Shown one piece after another: positions 31 to 7,834 of a stretch of 44,296 bases of DNA. The stretch is from contig JAAVFK010000004.1 of NCBI GenBank assembly GCA_014800785.1, forward strand, positions 50,621 through 94,916, read 5' to 3'. The notes under the pieces are model-generated. The model was not told where the DNA came from. It saw only the letters and a list, made by a program, of their open reading frames with translations, and made no database searches. This DNA comes from Bacteroidales bacterium (GTDB lineage Bacteria > Bacteroidota > Bacteroidia > Bacteroidales > Muribaculaceae). The number at the start of each line of letters is the position of its first letter. Within the stretch, counting starts at the first letter, position 1. The position numbers were made by a program, and so were the translations under genes.

Positions 31-49
31 CGTGTCCGAAATTCGAGTG

Positions 50-81
50 CAAAGTTAATCCAATTTTCTCAACCCTCCAAA
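50..81 (-). promoter_or_regulatory. Bacteroidota-type promoter firing out of the window
   Basis: On the minus strand TTTG (81-78) is followed after 20 bases by TAACTTTG (57-50), matching the Bacteroidota -33/-7 pattern exactly. Transcription would start near position 43 and leave the window to the left, so its gene is not visible. The 33-base block 50-82 is almost the same as the promoter block at 2831-2863 (28 of 33 positions). I see nothing else in 82-176. Confidence 0.7.
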
Positions 82-252: not shown

Positions 253-2097
253 TCACTCCACAGTCACCGACTTGGCGAGATTTCGCGGCATATCCACGTT
301 CTTGCCTTTATTGATGGCGATATAGTATGACAGAAGCTGAAGCGGAACACTGGTGATGATCGGAGTCAGACACTCCGGCACCTCGGGGATATCGAGTACA
401 TGATCCGCGATGTTGGCTATCTCGGTGTCTCCTCTGGTCACGATTGCGATTACTGAACCCTGACGCGCCTTCACCTGCTGCACGTTGTTCACGATCTTCT
501 CATAGAGATGGTCGTTGGGGGCGATGATAACACTCGGCATCTCGGCATCTATAAGCGCGATCGGACCATGTTTCATCTCAGCTGCCGGATAACCCTCCGC
601 GTGAATATAGGAGATCTCCTTTAGCTTGAGGGCTCCCTCAAGAGCAACGGGATAACTGTAGCCGCGTCCGAGATAAAGGAAGTTGCGCGCGTAGGTATAG
701 ATCAGGGAAAGATGTTTGATCTTATCGTTCAGCTTCAGCACATCCTCGACGAGTTCCGGGATACGGCTGATATAACCGCCAAGTCTCTCTTCCTCCTCTT
801 CAGAGAGATTGCCACGCAGACGGCCTACCGCGATAGCGAGCAATGTGAGCACCATCACCTGACCGGTGAACGCTTTCGTGGAAGCCACGCCGATTTCAGG
901 ACCTACATGAATATAGGTGCCGCTATGGGTTTCACGAGGGATGGACGAACCAACGACGTTGCTGATACCATAGACAAACGCACCCATTTCTTTCGCGATC
1001 TGGATCGCGGCGAGCGTGTCGGCTGTTTCGCCGCTCTGCGAGATAGCGATCACGATGTCGCGGTCGTCAAGCACAGGATTCGAGTATCTGAACTCGCTGG
1101 CATACTCAACCTCGACGGGGATCCGGGCCATATCCTGAAGCAGATATTTGCCGAGCAGGGCAGCGTGCCACGAAGTACCGCATGCCACGATCACGATTCT
1201 TTTTGCGTTGAGGAATTTTTCCTTGTTGTCAAGAACACCGGTCAGACACACTCGCTTGCCACCGTCGATAACGCGGCCGCGGATGCAGTCACGCAGGGTG
1301 TCGGGCTGCTCGAAGATCTCCTTGAGCATGAAGTGAGGGAAGCCACCTTTCTCAAGCTGAGAGATACTCATCTGAAGTTCGGTGATATTGACGTCTGCTT
1401 CCTCGTTCTCGAGATTCAGAAGCTTCAGCGGTTCGCCTTTCTTGATGACGGCGATCTCTTCATCCTTCAGATAAACTACGTTCTGAGTGTACTCTACAAA
1501 AGGAGTTGCATCTGAAGCAAGGAAAAACTCATCCTTACCGATTCCGATCACGAGCGGCGAGCTTTTGCGGGCAGCGATTATCTGATCGGGATTACTCTTC
1601 TCGATCACCGCGATCGCATAGGCGCCGACAACCTCGTTGAGTGCCTGACGAACAGCATCCACCAGCGAGCAATTATTCTTCAGGCGTATATATTCTATAA
1701 GTTCTACGAGCACCTCGGTGTCAGTCTCGCTGTGAAAGGTACACCCATGTTCAATAAGAGCGTCCTTGAGCACCTTGTAGTTCTCGATAGTGCCGTTATG
1801 AACAAGGGCAATGTTTCCATCCTCGCTATAATGGGGATGAGCGTTATTGTCCGTAGGCTCGCCGTGGGTAGCCCAACGGGTGTGGGCGATGCCTACCTTT
1901 GCGTCAAGTTTCTTACCCTTACAATGCTGTTCGAGATTGGAAACTTTACCGCAGCTTTTATAGATATTGAGAGAGCCATCCGGCGCACAGAGTGCGATAC
2001 CGGCGCTGTCATAACCACGGTATTCAAGTCGGTGAAGACCTTTGATGAGAATGTCGTAGACGTTTCCGTCACCGATATATCCTACGATTCCACACAT
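253..2097 (-). CDS. glmS: glutamine--fructose-6-phosphate aminotransferase (isomerizing)
   Basis: GlmS converts fructose-6-phosphate and glutamine to glucosamine-6-phosphate, the first step toward UDP-GlcNAc for peptidoglycan and lipid A, in the cytosol. The 614-aa length is normal for the family. Cys2 in the N-terminal MCGIVGY, exposed after removal of Met1, is the glutaminase nucleophile; EYRGYDSAG, HTRWATHG and ETDTEVLV are glutamine amidotransferase motifs (about residues 1-225). Two SIS sugar-isomerase domains follow, with ACGTSWHAA near residue 305 and SQSGETADT near 350, and the conserved C-terminus LAKSVTVE is present. The gene stands alone, with its own promoter at 2317-2348 and a hairpin at 177-209. 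The untranslated leader is about 210 bases, and I see no glmS ribozyme in it. Confidence 0.98.
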   Translation of the reverse strand: MCGIVGYIGDGNVYDILIKGLHRLEYRGYDSAGIALCAPDGSLNIYKSCGKVSNLEQHCKGKKLDAKVGIAHTRWATHGEPTDNNAHPHYSEDGNIALVHNGTIENYKVLKDALIEHGCTFHSETDTEVLVELIEYIRLKNNCSLVDAVRQALNEVVGAYAIAVIEKSNPDQIIAARKSSPLVIGIGKDEFFLASDATPFVEYTQNVVYLKDEEIAVIKKGEPLKLLNLENEEADVNITELQMSISQLEKGGFPHFMLKEIFEQPDTLRDCIRGRVIDGGKRVCLTGVLDNKEKFLNAKRIVIVACGTSWHAALLGKYLLQDMARIPVEVEYASEFRYSNPVLDDRDIVIAISQSGETADTLAAIQIAKEMGAFVYGISNVVGSSIPRETHSGTYIHVGPEIGVASTKAFTGQVMVLTLLAIAVGRLRGNLSEEEEERLGGYISRIPELVEDVLKLNDKIKHLSLIYTYARNFLYLGRGYSYPVALEGALKLKEISYIHAEGYPAAEMKHGPIALIDAEMPSVIIAPNDHLYEKIVNNVQQVKARQGSVIAIVTRGDTEIANIADHVLDIPEVPECLTPIITSVPLQLLSYYIAINKGKNVDMPRNLAKSVTVE

Positions 2098-2316
2098 AGT
2101 GATGTAAGTGTCAGTTTAGGTTTGAAAGTTGTTCCGAATCTGAAATAAAACTCAATAGCTTAAGAAATCTATCAAATATCCCCAAGGGGACACAGTTCAT
2201 ATCGGACGTTTTTAAATGAGTATGAGCCAACCGCGCCCATGCACCGAGTCGTTCGAAACAAACGACAAGCCGGCACAAAAGCGTGACAGGCGACTATCAT
2301 TCTTAAATATTACGCG

Positions 2317-2348
2317 CAAATTTACGAAAAATTGTCCACATACGCAAA
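2317..2348 (-). promoter_or_regulatory. glmS promoter
   Basis: On the minus strand TTTG (2348-2345) is followed after 20 bases by TAAATTTG (2324-2317), an exact TAnnTTTG match. Transcription should begin near 2310, giving a leader of about 210 bases before the glmS ATG at 2097. It separates glmS from the RNA-like locus upstream. Confidence 0.75.
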
Positions 2349-2424
2349 TCCCGGCCTTCCCTCACCCGCAAACCGACACTTAACGAACTATCGACACGAA
2401 CTATCGACGTCCGAAAATAAGCGA

Positions 2425-2452
2425 CCCCGCGGTTCCTTCCGGAGCCGCGGGG
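2425..2452 (-). terminator. GC-rich hairpin, likely terminator of the upstream RNA
   Basis: Twelve-base arms (2425-2436 and 2441-2452) pair throughout, with one G-U pair, around a 4-base loop. On the minus strand the stem is followed by TCGCTTATTTTC, fairly T-rich. It lies between the RNA-like locus and the glmS promoter, so it could end the transcript starting near 2824. Termination on the plus strand is less likely because no gene runs into it from the left. Confidence 0.55.
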
Positions 2453-2824
2453 CATTATATTGTTAGCGCAAGATTGTTGGTATATGATATATTAGATTTT
2501 TCATCTTCCGGAGCTCCGGAAGAATCTTGAGTTTTCACGTCAGTGACGCTGCGGAGAGAAGCCGGGCGTATAGGATCACGGTTTCCCGGTTCAAGTCTCG
2601 AGTTTCTCTCAGGTATCAGATTAAAAGATAGAGGTCAGTGCAATTCCCACTAAGGTTCTCATGGGTCCTCACCCTGAGCCTCTCTCCGCTGCGTCTGGCT
2701 ACCCGCTTCACAGCGGGCGCTGTTCACGATGTCAGTGTCAGTTTTCAGTATTATGTATCTTTTCTCTTCCTCCCGTCCGAACCACATTTCTCAGAGAGAA
2801 CATTTGGTTCGGTTGTCATTTCCG
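2425..2824 (-). ncRNA. candidate structured non-coding RNA, family not recognised
   Basis: No convincing protein is encoded here, yet a consensus minus-strand promoter (2831-2862) fires into it and a hairpin (2425-2452) closes it. Read on the minus strand the elements are: a hairpin just after the start with arms CCGAACCA/TGGTTCGG and TTCTC/GAGAA; a CCCGCT-GTGA-AGCGGG hairpin (2717-2702) capped by a GNRA-type loop; then a core closed by an 18-bp stem with one A-A mismatch (2545-2562 with 2679-2696). Nested CTCAGG/CCTGAG, GAGG/CCTC, TATC/GATA and CCGGG/CCCGG pairings lie inside it. A perfect 18-base palindrome is at 2505-2522. The GTGA loop appears only on the minus strand, supporting that direction. 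RNase P, tmRNA and SRP RNA signatures are absent. A 6S-like RNA or a Bacteroidales-specific RNA are guesses only. Confidence 0.5.
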
Positions 2825-2830
2825 ACACCG

Positions 2831-2862
2831 CAAAGTTAATACAATCCCCTCACCCCTCCAAA
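2831..2862 (-). promoter_or_regulatory. promoter of the candidate non-coding RNA
   Basis: On the minus strand TTTG (2862-2859) is followed after 20 bases by TAACTTTG (2838-2831). The spacer is nearly identical to that of the promoter at 50-81, which suggests a shared, probably strong promoter type. The start should fall near 2824. The rest of the gap up to 3177 is A/T-rich, and I found no convincing plus-strand promoter for the NYN gene in it. Confidence 0.7.
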
Positions 2863-3177
2863 TCTTTTTTCAAGCAAAATATTGAATTTACTTTCAATTG
2901 AGCATCATACTTGTGACACTTTGCTATTTTTACCCCTCTTTTAGCCCATTATTTTAAAAATTAATAGCAAAATGTCAATTTAGACTTTTCACCAACACCA
3001 ACAACTATGTTTTATAACATCTAAAAACGAACGAAAATATTTTCATTTCAGTTTCATTTTCAATCCCTGCTCCGCTTATTTCCCGATATAATACAAGTAC
3101 CACCATCAAACCCGACAGGGGCTGCATACGTTGAATTATATGTAACCAATCGCCGGTCACGGCAAACAAACTACGCT

Positions 3178-3828
3178 ATGCAAGGATATATCTCTGTCGG
3201 AGTCTTCATCGACGGCGGCTACTACGCCAAGGTTAACCGCGCCCTGAAGGCGGCCGAAAGCTCCATCATAAGAGTCAAGTCTCTGTTCAACTTCATAACC
3301 ACCCGCCTGGCTATGGATGACGGAATTGCCCCCGGGGACTGTCAGATCACCGAGGCCCACTATTTCCGCGGACGCTATCGCGTGAAGGAGGCATACGACA
3401 AGCACCTGCTCTATAATGAACGTAAATTCGAGGATTCCCTCATCGAGAACGATGTCATTTTTCACTACAAGCATCTGCGCGAGGTTGATCGCGACGGCGA
3501 GGTGCAGGTTATCGAGAAAGGCGTCGATGTATGGTTCGCGCTCGAAGCATACGAGCTTTCAGCCTTCCGCCATTTCGATTATGTGGTACTTATCACCGGA
3601 GACGCCGATCACGAAATGCTGGTACGCAAGCTCAAAGCCATAAAGGTCAAACCGGTCTTGCTGACCTGGAACCTGACCGACGTTGACGCCACCTCTCCCC
3701 TTCTCCGCGAGGAAGTCGGCCATCACTGGGAACTTTCCGAAATTCTCCAGCAGTATCCGCGCCTGAAGAAAGAGCTGCTCTACAAGCTCCGCGATCCGGC
3801 CGTCGCTCCGCTCGGTGACACATTTTAA
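3178..3828 (+). CDS. NYN-domain (LabA/DUF88-like) protein
   Basis: This 216-aa protein carries a NYN domain, a PIN-like nuclease fold often found in RNA-processing enzymes. The opening strand VGVFIDGGYYAKV (about residues 7-19) contains the first conserved Asp, and VVLITGDADHEMLVRKLKA (about 137-155) has the typical TGDxD motif; together these would bind a metal ion. KGVDVWFALEAYELS in between is also typical. Metal-dependent RNase activity is inferred from the family, and the substrate is unknown. There is no signal peptide, so it is cytosolic. It starts at the ATG at 3178, and no in-frame alternative is better. It is monocistronic, converging on the pepD gene with a shared hairpin at 3919-3948. 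Confidence 0.85.
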   Translation: MQGYISVGVFIDGGYYAKVNRALKAAESSIIRVKSLFNFITTRLAMDDGIAPGDCQITEAHYFRGRYRVKEAYDKHLLYNERKFEDSLIENDVIFHYKHLREVDRDGEVQVIEKGVDVWFALEAYELSAFRHFDYVVLITGDADHEMLVRKLKAIKVKPVLLTWNLTDVDATSPLLREEVGHHWELSEILQQYPRLKKELLYKLRDPAVAPLGDTF

Positions 3829-3996: not shown

Positions 3997-5454
3997 TCAG
4001 GCGAGACGGCGGAGGATGTCGCAGAGAAGTTTCCAATATTTCTCTACTGAGGGAATATTGGCTTTCTCGCTGGGGGAATGGATATCTTTAAGCGTGGGAC
4101 CGAAGCTGATCATATCCAGTCCGGGCATCTTCTCAAGGAAGAGACCACACTCAAGACCGGCGTGGAGCGCTTCTACGCGCGGTTTTTCTCCAAAGAGATC
4201 CTCGAAGCTCTGCTCAGCCACCTTGAGGACTTTCGACTCCGGATTGGGAGCCCATCCCACATAGGTATCGTCAAACACAACTTCAAAGCCGATCATCGAG
4301 AACAGAGCCTTGACACGGTCGGCGATCTCGTCGCGACGGCTATCTACCGACGATCTCTGGTGAACCGTCACAGTCACCGTCTGCGCAGCCTTATCGCACT
4401 TAATGCTCGCAACGTTGCACGAAGTTTCTATCAGACCGGGGACTGCATTTGACATTCCCTGCACACCGTTGGGACAGCTGAAGACGGCCGCGATCAAGCG
4501 GTCTGATTCCCCTTTCTCCCATACCATGTCGCGAGCAGCGGTCTCTTTACATTCAACGACAAATGCGTCGCCCTCCGCAAGCTTGAATTCATCGCGCAGA
4601 ACGGCCTCGAATTCCTTGGACATCTTGTCGAAGTCGGCCGCCTTATCAGCCGGGATGCCGACAACTGCATGAGCCTCGCGCGGAATGGCGTTCGCCAGAC
4701 CTCCGCCGTCGATCTCAGCCACGTAGACCGGGAAACATTCATTAACCTCCCAAAGGAAACGGCAGAGCTGCTGGTTGGCGTTTGCACGTCCAAGACCGAT
4801 TTCCATACCGGAGTGGCCACCTTTGAAGTGATCAAGACCACATACGCGCCATGCCAGACCCTCGGGAGCACCTTCAAGCACATAAGAGCGTTTGGCGAGC
4901 GTCACCTTGCCGCCGGCACAACCGATCACAAGCTGACCATGCTCCTCGCTGTCGAGATTGAGAAGGATATCACCCTCTACAAAGCCGGGTTCGAGGCCAT
5001 TGGCTCCGATCAGGCCCTGCTCCTCGTCAACAGTGAAAAGAACCGAGAGCGGACCGTGAACGAGCGAGTCGTCCAGCAACACGGCCATACCGGAGGCACA
5101 GCCCATACCGTTGTCAGCACCGAGGGTAGTACCGTCCGCCTTCACCCAATCGCCGTCGACGATCGTTGTGATCGGATCGTTGAGGAAGTCATGTACCTTG
5201 TCGCCGCGCTTTTCGGCCACCATATCCTGGTGTCCCTGAAGAATGATACGCGGAGCGTTCTCGTGACCGGGAGTGGCAGGCTTCGTCATGACAACGTTGC
5301 CGACCTTGTCGGTACGCACGGGGATATTATGTTTTGTCGCCCAGTCGACCAGAAAGGCTTTCATCTTTTCGAGATGATGGGTCGGACGGGGAATTTTGGT
5401 TATTTCATCGAAGCATTCCCAGAGGAGCTTCGGCTGGAGATCTGTAATTTTCAC
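3997..5454 (-). CDS. pepD: aminoacyl-histidine dipeptidase, PepD-like (copy 1)
   Basis: A 485-aa cytosolic dipeptidase of family M20 (PepD subfamily), which hydrolyses a broad range of dipeptides. Metal-binding and catalytic residues are visible: HQD (His75, Asp77), the bridging Asp114 in LGADNGMG, the general base in DEEQG (Glu144/Glu145) and Asp168 in LLNLDSEE; HAGLECGLF near the C-terminus supplies a further His. It starts at the ATG at 5454. It lies 101 bases after a muramidase lipoprotein, with no clear terminator or promoter between, so it may be co-transcribed with pepD copy 2 and the muramidase. Its length and motif positions match copy 2 exactly, marking the two as paralogues. Confidence 0.95.
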   Translation of the reverse strand: MKITDLQPKLLWECFDEITKIPRPTHHLEKMKAFLVDWATKHNIPVRTDKVGNVVMTKPATPGHENAPRIILQGHQDMVAEKRGDKVHDFLNDPITTIVDGDWVKADGTTLGADNGMGCASGMAVLLDDSLVHGPLSVLFTVDEEQGLIGANGLEPGFVEGDILLNLDSEEHGQLVIGCAGGKVTLAKRSYVLEGAPEGLAWRVCGLDHFKGGHSGMEIGLGRANANQQLCRFLWEVNECFPVYVAEIDGGGLANAIPREAHAVVGIPADKAADFDKMSKEFEAVLRDEFKLAEGDAFVVECKETAARDMVWEKGESDRLIAAVFSCPNGVQGMSNAVPGLIETSCNVASIKCDKAAQTVTVTVHQRSSVDSRRDEIADRVKALFSMIGFEVVFDDTYVGWAPNPESKVLKVAEQSFEDLFGEKPRVEALHAGLECGLFLEKMPGLDMISFGPTLKDIHSPSEKANIPSVEKYWKLLCDILRRLA

Positions 5455-5555: not shown

Positions 5556-6380
5556 CTATTTATGCGGAACTGAGGAAGTACGCTTTATGGCTGAGCGGAC
5601 ATCTTCCGGATGCTTCTCAGACTCCTTGGGCGTTTTGGCCTCCTTCGCCTTTTCTGCGTCGCGTAATTTCTTGTAGGCGTTTGCCATCTTGGTATGGTAG
5701 CCACGCTTCGCGTATGAAGCACCGTTATATTTCCGCGCGAATCCGGCCCAGTTCTTGGCTTTCAAGTCGGCGAGCATTCCGGAATTCCGGATAAAGGCGG
5801 CGAATAGCTCCAGTTGTTCCAGCTCCGAATATGAGCAGAGCCTCACGAACTCGTCTATCGTCTTGCATCCGCACATCTTATAATTGAACCCACCGATCTG
5901 GAACATACCCCAGAAGGTGCCCATGTTGGCTCCCTGGGCGTTCTGCTTGCGGGCATTGATGAGCTGGGTCCATTCCTGGTGTGCATAACCGGTGAGACCT
6001 TTCGGAACACTCTCCCCTTTGGCGCCGGACTTGTCTGTCGCCTTAGCACGAAAGCGGTTGAACATCGCGCGATCGAAGTTGATCACCGGTACGCCCGGGG
6101 CCCAGAAGCCCTTCATCTGCGAACCGGCCTCAATCTGGACGACCGCCTTGATCGCGGCGATCTCCACACCTAATTCTTCGGCAACGATTCGGAAATCCTC
6201 GTCAGTCAACCCGGAGTAGCGGGTTTCGGCGTCGGCGGCCGGAACAGAGTCCACACGGACCTCGACCGGAGCACCGCTGGCGTCGCCGGCTGACTTTGAT
6301 GAGGGGTTCGCGCAGGCGGCGGTCATTACGGCCGCCCCTGCGAGAACCGATATTAGTGTCGGCAGCAACCGACCAATCAT
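5556..6380 (-). CDS. N-acetylmuramidase-domain lipoprotein
   Basis: A 274-aa putative peptidoglycan hydrolase. The N-terminus is a lipoprotein signal with lipobox TAAC (Cys23), so the protein should be anchored in a periplasm-facing or outer membrane. Residues about 60-235 resemble the N-acetylmuramidase family (DUF3380, known also from phage endolysins): AIKAVVQIEAG supplies the likely catalytic Glu84, followed by PVINFDRAMFNRF, GTFWGMFQIGGFNYKMCG and WAGFARKYNGASY. The lysine-rich C-terminal tail (about 240-274) has no recognised domain. The start codon overlaps the stop of pepD copy 2 as ATGA, pointing to translational coupling. Linkage of a wall-cutting enzyme with two dipeptidases suggests wall-peptide recycling, which is inference. 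Confidence 0.85.
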   Translation of the reverse strand: MIGRLLPTLISVLAGAAVMTAACANPSSKSAGDASGAPVEVRVDSVPAADAETRYSGLTDEDFRIVAEELGVEIAAIKAVVQIEAGSQMKGFWAPGVPVINFDRAMFNRFRAKATDKSGAKGESVPKGLTGYAHQEWTQLINARKQNAQGANMGTFWGMFQIGGFNYKMCGCKTIDEFVRLCSYSELEQLELFAAFIRNSGMLADLKAKNWAGFARKYNGASYAKRGYHTKMANAYKKLRDAEKAKEAKTPKESEKHPEDVRSAIKRTSSVPHK

Positions 6381-7834
6381 GCGTTGGCCACTTTTTCAAG
6401 CGTACGGCAGAGATGACGCCAGAACTTCTCTACTGTCGGGATATTGAGCTGCTCGTCGGGCGAGTGTACTCCGGTCATGGTCGGACCAAAGCTGACCATA
6501 TCGAGTTCGGGATATTTGTCAAGGAACAGACCGCACTCCAGACCGGCGTGGATAGCCTTGATGGCGGGCTTCACACCGAACAGCTCTTCGTATGCCTCGG
6601 CAGAGAGGTGCATGATGGGCGAATCCATATTGGGTGCCCAGCCGGGATAGCCGTCAGAATGGGAAACTTCGGCACCGGCGAGCTGGAAATGAGCCTCAAC
6701 CTGGCCGGCGATATCGTTTTTGCGGCTTTCGACCGAAGAACGCTGTGACGTGGTGACCTTGATCTTGTCATCGTCAATCATCTTCACGGCGGCGAGGTTT
6801 GTAGAGGTCTCAACGAGGCCTTCGAGATCGCGGCTCATCGAGTACACTCCGTGGGGAGCGCTGTAGAGAGCACGCACGAGACGAAGCGAGGTCTCGGAGT
6901 CGATGCAGTATTCGGGACGGTCAACCGGTTCGATGACAAGTTTCATCGAGGGCTCGATACCCTTATATTCGTTGCGGATGTCTTCCGCATATTTCTTGAG
7001 CGCTTTCTTGACAGCCTCTTCATGCTCAACCTGAATTCCGAAAACAGCCTGAGCCTCGCGCGGAATCGCGTTGCGGAGATTGCCGCCGTCGAACGAGCTG
7101 ACCTCGATGGGCCAACGCTGTGAACATTCCCACATGAAACGGGCGATGACCTTATTGGCATTGGCGCGGCCGAGATGGATATCACCGCCGGAGTGTCCGC
7201 CGAGAAGACCGCTGACGCTCACACGCAGATATGAGAAATTCTCAGGGGCGAAGCTGCGACGATAGGTGAAGATAGCGGTCGTGTCGATACCGCCGGCGCA
7301 ACCTACGAAGATCTCGCCGTCATCCTCAGAGTCGAGGTTGATCAGAATCTTGGCGTTGAGCATATCCTTACCGAGGTTCTGCGCACCTTCGAGACCGATC
7401 TCCTCGTTGATGGTGAAAAGAGCCTCGACAGGGCCGTGTACGAGATCCTTGTCAACCATGACAGCGAGAGCCGCGGCCACACCGATACCATTGTCGGCGC
7501 CGAGAGTGGTGCCTTTGGCTTTCACCCATTCGCCGTCGATATAGGTCTTGATCGGATCTTTCATAAAGTCATGTTCCACATCCGAGTTCTTCTCGCAGAC
7601 CATATCCATGTGGGCCTGGAGGCAAACCACGGGAGCCGATTCGTGGCCCGGAGTTGCGGGCTTCGACATGACTACGTTGCCGCACTTGTCTGTCTTTACG
7701 GCGATTCCGTGCTTTTCAGCGAAGTCGAGAAGGAATGCGCGGATCTGCTCCTCGTGGCATGAGGGACGGGGAACTTTGGTGATCTCATCGAAAATGTGCC
7801 AGATGAGTTCCGGCTTGAGGTCTTTTACTTCCAT
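6377..7834 (-). CDS. pepD: aminoacyl-histidine dipeptidase, PepD-like (copy 2)
   Basis: A second 485-aa M20-family PepD dipeptidase. Key residues fall at the same positions as in the copy at 3997-5454: HMD (His75, Asp77), Asp114 in LGADNGIG, Glu144/Glu145 in NEEIG, an Asp in NLDSEDDG and the C-terminal HAGLECGLF. The HQD to HMD change may alter substrate choice, which is speculation. It is the first gene of a minus-strand unit with a good promoter at 7940-7970, and its TGA overlaps the ATG of the muramidase gene by four bases. It is cytosolic, with no signal peptide. Confidence 0.95.
   Translation of the reverse strand: MEVKDLKPELIWHIFDEITKVPRPSCHEEQIRAFLLDFAEKHGIAVKTDKCGNVVMSKPATPGHESAPVVCLQAHMDMVCEKNSDVEHDFMKDPIKTYIDGEWVKAKGTTLGADNGIGVAAALAVMVDKDLVHGPVEALFTINEEIGLEGAQNLGKDMLNAKILINLDSEDDGEIFVGCAGGIDTTAIFTYRRSFAPENFSYLRVSVSGLLGGHSGGDIHLGRANANKVIARFMWECSQRWPIEVSSFDGGNLRNAIPREAQAVFGIQVEHEEAVKKALKKYAEDIRNEYKGIEPSMKLVIEPVDRPEYCIDSETSLRLVRALYSAPHGVYSMSRDLEGLVETSTNLAAVKMIDDDKIKVTTSQRSSVESRKNDIAGQVEAHFQLAGAEVSHSDGYPGWAPNMDSPIMHLSAEAYEELFGVKPAIKAIHAGLECGLFLDKYPELDMVSFGPTMTGVHSPDEQLNIPTVEKFWRHLCRTLEKVANA

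Follow-up and report, generated by a model that had tools for sequence, protein, structure and literature searches.

A stem-closed candidate sponge RNA for the small RNA FopS, encoded upstream of glmS in a Muribaculaceae-type genus

CsrB titrates the protein CsrA, and CsrB/CsrC-type RNAs carry repeated motifs on a non-coding scaffold by which a protein is titrated. Other RNAs, SroC among them, act as sponges or antagonists of an sRNA; such sponges commonly, but not obligatorily, have more than one binding site. Sponges or antagonists of sRNAs in other phyla also include chbBC/ChiX and CJnc180/CJnc190 (PMC8687705), and sRNA sponges are mentioned as a general concept in the discussion of PMC7366714. 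In Bacteroides, the sRNA FopS is described as the hub of an RNA network by which glycan-uptake genes are repressed; it is reported to pair near start codons and to repress translation, and is counteracted by the protein RbpB (PMC11697453). The words sponge, decoy and Muribacul- are absent from the main text of that paper, and a search of the open-access literature returned no sponge for FopS nor any other sponge in Bacteroidota.

Here we describe a locus, adjacent to the sugar-metabolism gene glmS, in a stretch of 44,296 nucleotides from an uncultured Bacteroidales bacterium (hereafter the window; positions 50621-94916 of contig C4 in its own genome, labelled G000) whose RNA, as judged from sequence analysis, is likely to be a sponge (target mimic) for FopS; its transcription, its binding in the cell and the direction of its effect are what we infer. 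The locus has promoter and terminator-like signals, a conserved closing stem and strong, conserved complementarity to the FopS copy of its own genome. Like chbBC/ChiX, CJnc180/CJnc190 and SroC, it offers an RNA predicted to pair with an sRNA and to relieve the targets of the latter, but in contrast to those systems the RNA is separate, large and stem-closed, with one to five strong sites. With CsrB/CsrC it shares repeated, regulator-titrating motifs on a scaffold, the difference being that the repeats are antisense to an sRNA. Its conserved sites copy the start regions with which FopS (family RF04319) pairs in Bacteroides target mRNAs (PMC11697453), whereas the mimicked start, unlike that of FopS targets, yields no translated gene. 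While the sponge class as such is known from other phyla, what is new here is an RNA of large size, closed by a stem and bearing mimics of start regions. The features are as follows.

2830..2862, minus strand: sigma-ABfr-type promoter, TTTG-N20-TAACTTTGC; boxes located in the sequence, transcription start predicted at ~2823
2425..2823, minus strand: candidate FopS sponge, non-coding RNA of ~400 nt, both transcript ends predicted
2777..2812, minus strand: 5' hairpin (minimum-energy fold)
2716..2749, minus strand: M1, weak FopS-complementary stretch, -18.0 kcal/mol, within shuffle range
2701..2718, minus strand: hairpin with GUGA (GNRA) loop (fold)
2678..2695, minus strand: P1, 5' strand of the closing stem (fold and helix scan)
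2601..2635, minus strand: M2, main FopS-complementary site, 30 pairs over FopS nt 1-34, -33.5 kcal/mol
2545..2562, minus strand: P1, 3' strand of the closing stem (fold and helix scan)
2504..2523, minus strand: hairpin 3' of the closing stem (fold)
2414..2452, minus strand: terminator-like hairpin (2425-2452; fold) plus weak U tract (TCGCTTATTTT; read from the sequence)
2316..2324, minus strand: separate -7 box TAAATTTGC, likely the glmS promoter
253..2097, minus strand: glmS, neighbour gene

An earlier note on this DNA had proposed a structured RNA locus upstream of glmS with a consensus promoter, an observation that our analysis confirms: the TTTG and TAnnTTTG boxes at 2830-2862, just beyond the upper bound of 2824 given at the time, match the sigma-ABfr consensus of TTTG near -33 and TAnnTTTG at -7 (PMC7366714). 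The minus strand of the region folds with -137.5 kcal/mol (z -5.5; 0 of 100 shuffles equally stable), and the plus strand folds too (z -6.2; 0 of 100 shuffles as stable), so that folding energy alone cannot settle the strand; we assign the minus strand because of the promoter, the order of the hairpins, the relatives and the pairing with FopS. The core at 2545-2697 is indeed closed in the fold, as the note had it, by a stem of 18 nt on either side with one A.A mismatch, formed by 2545-2562 and 2678-2695, and when folded alone it reaches a z of -2.9, with 1 of 200 shuffles as stable. The GNRA-capped hairpin was likewise recovered, with its GUGA loop at 2701-2718, and of the closing terminator the hairpin at 2425-2452 stood, but the U tract turned out weak. 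For the window peptides of 31, 42 and 22 aa, we found no convincing match in the other 24 members of the group introduced below (best tblastn E 0.09), in agreement with the view that the region holds no credible protein; the longest ATG frames in the 25 member pieces span 0-65 aa. Taken as a whole, the minus strand of 2425-2824 looks like an apparently independent, structured non-coding RNA.

The link between the window RNA and glmS is positional. On the far side of the RNA, a gene which we take to be of NYN type lies at 3178-3828 on the plus strand, and NYN-glmS neighbourhoods are found repeatedly in the genus, with rearrangements. An inverted repeat (TTTGCTATTTTT / AAATTAATAGCAAA), for which Rfam returned miRNA matches at chance level only, spans window positions 2912-2979, between this gene and the promoter of the RNA. 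Two similar genes, presumably dipeptidase-like, follow at 3997-5454 and 6377-7834 and flank a third gene, and a 5S rRNA gene is present at the contig end (44172-44280). Directly downstream of glmS, a further TAACTTTGC box (49-63, minus strand) reads out of the window; many contigs of the relatives start or stop shortly after glmS.

When the whole RNA was used as a DNA query against its own genome and 60 others, it returned besides itself a single weak true match (G036), and a second relative (G022) was found by reading the neighbourhoods of NYN genes; both lie upstream of glmS. An 80-base core of the latter, run against 111 genomes, recovered its source, G036 and two chance matches resembling coding sequence, and an exact pattern applied to 397 family genomes gave 2 matches and was too tight, as it missed the window itself. 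Motif and stem added 22 relatives to the two obtained by DNA search and reading. Altogether, 90 glmS-upstream regions of the genus were read, out of 95 listed glmS places, with members picked by motif scan, helix scan and reading by eye; members were present in 25 of these regions, the window included, and none was recognised in the other 65. All 24 relatives come from one genus and are located upstream of glmS on the same strand, with strong sequence divergence. Where a name is attached, the relatives are MAGs under the labels Porphyromonadaceae, Muribaculaceae or Bacteroides sp., and we refer to the group as Muribaculaceae-type. The members are L030 (window), L036, L037, L040, L049, L050, L052, L055, L058, L060, L069, L073, L074, L075, L078, L080, L081, L084, L089, L090, L092, L110, L112, L126 and L131, where L126 and L131 extend two of the 90 regions (L068, L061). 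Several members are closely related to each other, with near copies among L037/L040/L058 and L081/L090/L049. A TAnnTTTG box stands ahead of all 25, and a hairpin plus T run was seen by eye after the stem in L049, L060, L080, L112, L126 and L131; many members have a second TAnnTTTG before glmS. The examined pieces measure 194 to 793 nt, the longest extending beyond the RNA.

Among the candidates dropped as members, L083 and L093 are coding, L031 and L045 have a helix only, and L086 combines a promoter and a 16-bp helix, without a clear M2; the last 600 nt of L086 serve as one of the 107 control regions used below. When GTDB contigs were scanned for a subgroup signature, 8 loci came up, labelled Porphyromonadaceae (5), Muribaculaceae (2) or Bacteroides sp. 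(1), all of which correspond to loci already in the set. In one subgroup (L081, L090, L049, L069, L080, L092, L131), the blocks CCAACUUCUGUUGACC and GAUAAAGAGAUAUC are conserved near the 5' end; they stand outside the sponge model. Within the genus, a second subfamily was encountered away from glmS (L272-L277, in G084, G083, G027, G098, G087 and G070). Its loci share CAATATTTGCGTAAA(A)CTA..CTCTATCTTTGAAACTAATRCC and are FopS-complementary, with a strong FopS site in each of the six and two sites in four of them, and a frame that we take to be dipeptidase-like adjoins several.

Membership in known RNA families was assessed with 4227 Rfam models at their gathering scores. The region around the RNA gave four matches at E<=10, all far under the gathering scores, the whole window gave 5S rRNA only, and nothing came near a gathering score in 20 glmS-upstream loci (19 with members, the other being L086). 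The search for 6S, 6S-Flavo and Bacteroidales-1, suggested in the earlier note, thus ended without a family match, Bacteroidales-1 and all other Rfam families remaining below their gathering scores for this RNA; nor was there a cmscan match of the window RNA to the FopS model RF04319, for which 56 bits are needed, so that the RNA is not itself a FopS member. The lack of an Rfam match together with the conserved closing stem supports the idea, raised in the note as well, of a new structured-RNA family. That the RNA precedes glmS in the same orientation in 25 of 90 genus regions might suggest a leader or cis-regulator of that gene (attenuator or riboswitch), a reading we consider very improbable given that in the window the RNA ends in a terminator-like hairpin of its own and glmS is preceded by a second -7 box, that another open frame lies between RNA and glmS in L126, that the second subfamily is found near the presumed dipeptidase gene instead in at least some of its six genomes, that Rfam yielded no glmS ribozyme or riboswitch match upstream of glmS, and that the RNA was not recognised in 65 of 90 genus regions nor in any of 40 regions of other genera.

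A 6S-type RNA polymerase decoy, the known family that the note had in mind, would share with our RNA the long closing stem around a partly open region, and a 6S gene is otherwise unaccounted for in the own genome, where 6S-Flavo (RF01685) found no match at E<=1. This whole-genome test is weak because the model also failed in the Bacteroides control genome, and a Bacteroides 6S RNA is reported (PMC7366714). At the locus itself, no 6S model was among the matches at E<=10, nor did one match in the loci of the relatives, again as a weak test; the pieces range from 194 to 793 nt, and the conserved content is a different one, antisense to FopS. The 6S assignment therefore found no support, and we give it next to no probability.

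The conserved part of the RNAs was captured in a motif model, R1, from 12 contiguous motif copies (A3), built before FopS came into view. Over 111 genomes of the genus, R1 had a match at E<=0.5 in 109, and among the matches listed, 76 genomes had one that scored 27.3-27.9 bits and lay away from glmS, its position in the own genome being C18: 44344-44376. All 29 such loci L198-L226, and 12 more (L310-L321), proved to be the antisense strand of a FopS gene, the layout of which comprises a TAnnTTTG-type box followed by (G)UGUUUUUCAUGGUAUUAGAUUUAAGGUUAGAGG and, after it, a terminator hairpin. In cmscan, seven of seven FopS loci, among them both own-genome copies, scored above the RF04319 gathering score of 56, five genus FopS loci reaching 66.5-67.8 bits; the two copies of the own genome are FopS-A (C18, 66.7 bits) and FopS-B (C43, 75.9 bits). 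FopS was found in 108 of the 111 genomes, in 105 over the cut-off. The conserved motif shared by the RNAs upstream of glmS is, in sequence, the whole FopS 5' seed in reverse complement. A FopS-like gene in genus g30 (L328, around 1496) has the seed UCAGGUAUUAG, not UCAUGGUAUUAG, the change falling on the start-codon position.

For the pairing analysis, nt 1-34 of FopS-A were used as query, with sites at or below -22 kcal/mol counted as strong. The 25 RNAs contain 50 strong sites compared with 1.8 in dinucleotide shuffles; the reverse strands gave 1, twelve shuffled seeds gave 1-7, and 107 other glmS-upstream regions of the genus and other genera (last 600 nt each, 64 kb) gave 5. At least one strong site was present in 24 of the 25 RNAs and at least two in 20, with five in L075 and none in L074; since many members were recognised by the M2 motif and some via the helix scan, first sites and stem are not fully independent evidence, and second sites are the more independent ones. 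In the window RNA one site is strong, and the others, at -18 and weaker, are no better than shuffles. Because a cut-off of -13 gives little excess (129 sites versus 108 shuffled), M1 and the other weak window sites are no evidence. When ~380 kb of the own genome (18 stretches, the window and two FopS regions) were scanned on both strands, only the antisense strands of the two FopS genes gave stronger complements than the window site, and the best one after it reached -29.6. Opening costs of 6.9 for the window RNA and 7.6 for the FopS seed leave about -19 at this site. FopS-A pairs better than FopS-B in 22 of 25 members (not in L055, L074 and L131), and in 23 of 25 the fold leaves the best site less paired than the remaining RNA. 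The complementarity thus has the reach expected of a sponge, extending along the seed of an sRNA from the same cell and exceeding chance level. For glmS as a FopS target there was no excess, the 90 start regions averaging -10.7 versus -10.9 kcal/mol in shuffles.

The closing stem was analyzed per member as the best helix, with G-U pairs at low weight, between the parts to the left and right of the best FopS site. This helix beats 60 of 60 shuffles in 21 of 25 members and is reached by shuffles in L052 (1/60), L055 (1/60), L050 (4/60) and L089 (14/60), in a test that was not blind because the helix scan had helped to choose some members; in L074 the helix is present, and a strong FopS site is lacking. 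The stems vary in sequence, for instance GCGUCCGCAGGCAU/AUGCCUGCGGACGC in L078 and AUAUUCGGAGAGGG/CCCUCUCCGAAUAU in L110. In eight sequence-alignable stems, 91.3 per cent of the cells pair; L049, with the same stem as L081, L089, with a bulged stem, and members with unalignable stems were excluded from the pair count. Changes on both sides were seen in 7 of 13 pairs versus 1.8 in shuffles, with 0 of 500 shuffles as high and slid versions giving 0-2, five of the seven double changes resting on a single sequence each (L126 or L131). Further pair types were unexceptional in the same eight stems (12 versus 10.5 in shuffles, 62 of 500 as high). For the closing stem, the compensation described in the note is borne out as regards changes on both sides, but not as regards the number of pair types.

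A CCUCU box accompanies the motif in 21 of 25 members (absent in L052, L055, L089 and L074) and can pair with the AGAGG extension of FopS-A. The AGAGG form, GGTTAGAGG, occurs in 41 of 41 such genus FopS loci, a number that is not an unbiased census because the loci were found with a motif containing CCUCU, and in none of 27 FopS loci from other genera and families; five other genus genomes differ at the AGAGG position (L267, L270, L278-L280). No member was recognised ahead of glmS in 40 genomes from other genera, contig ends having shortened two of the regions; the best motif score was 16.2, where shuffles reach 20.6. Motif matches at the order level outside the genus (60 genomes) led to 20 loci with FopS or FopS-like genes and no sponge, and the same held for the 9 loci checked among those listed at the family level in other genera (167 genomes). 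We lean towards the view that a single Muribaculaceae-type genus gave rise to a new family of sRNA sponges, large, stem-scaffolded and often with several sites, and that these co-evolved with the AGAGG-extended FopS seen only in this genus, most of the sponges carrying the matching CCUCU.

According to the sponge model, the locus would give rise to an independent non-coding RNA of ~400 nt, in which the long stem closes the molecule and would expose a fairly open stretch copying the start region of FopS target mRNAs. FopS would pair with this stretch through its whole 5' seed, and as the start-region copy has no working start codon, the RNA would capture FopS without being an mRNA. Free FopS would then drop, and FopS-repressed genes, in Bacteroides those for outer-membrane glycan transporters, would rise. 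In M2 of the window RNA, the A of the mimicked AUG is absent; of 52 sites counted, 19 are without AUG, and among the other 33, open frames of 1-17 codons follow in 28, the remaining 5 running off the examined piece. The repeats had also been considered as general start-region mimics, an idea that was rejected when none of the 173 gene starts predicted mechanically for the own genome had CTRATRCC; CTGA is enriched there (27 versus 12.8).

Complementarity alone gives no direction, and the RNA could conversely serve some other function and be targeted or partnered by FopS, whose pairing would switch or degrade it. A single strong site, as in the window, is enough for being regulated, and the subgroup-conserved elements outside the FopS sites suggest another job. 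We nonetheless consider this unlikely, as repeated sites in 20 of 25 members, 19 of 52 sites without AUG, mostly short frames and strong divergence outside sites and stem fit a decoy better. A decoy might also be directed at a protein, the start-region-like repeats titrating an RNA-binding protein such as an RbpB-like RRM protein; in B. thetaiotaomicron, FopS and a susC 5' region are ligands of RbpB, which binds single-stranded regions (PMC11697453). However, the CCUCU box (21 of 25) fits the AGAGG extension of the genus, as explained by base pairing and not by protein binding, and the pairing covers the entire FopS seed, which makes titration of a protein quite improbable in our eyes.

If the FopS sponge reading is true, this RNA would, judging by the open-access literature, be the first sponge of the phylum Bacteroidota. 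Its fast-changing scaffold, combined with conserved sRNA-binding stretches, shows how such RNAs evade homology searches. Sponge and sRNA are both encoded by short, separate genes and would make a ready test system. For the biology of these bacteria, a dedicated FopS-capturing RNA would add a layer of control, the first known RNA-on-RNA control of the glycan-uptake FopS network in Bacteroidota.
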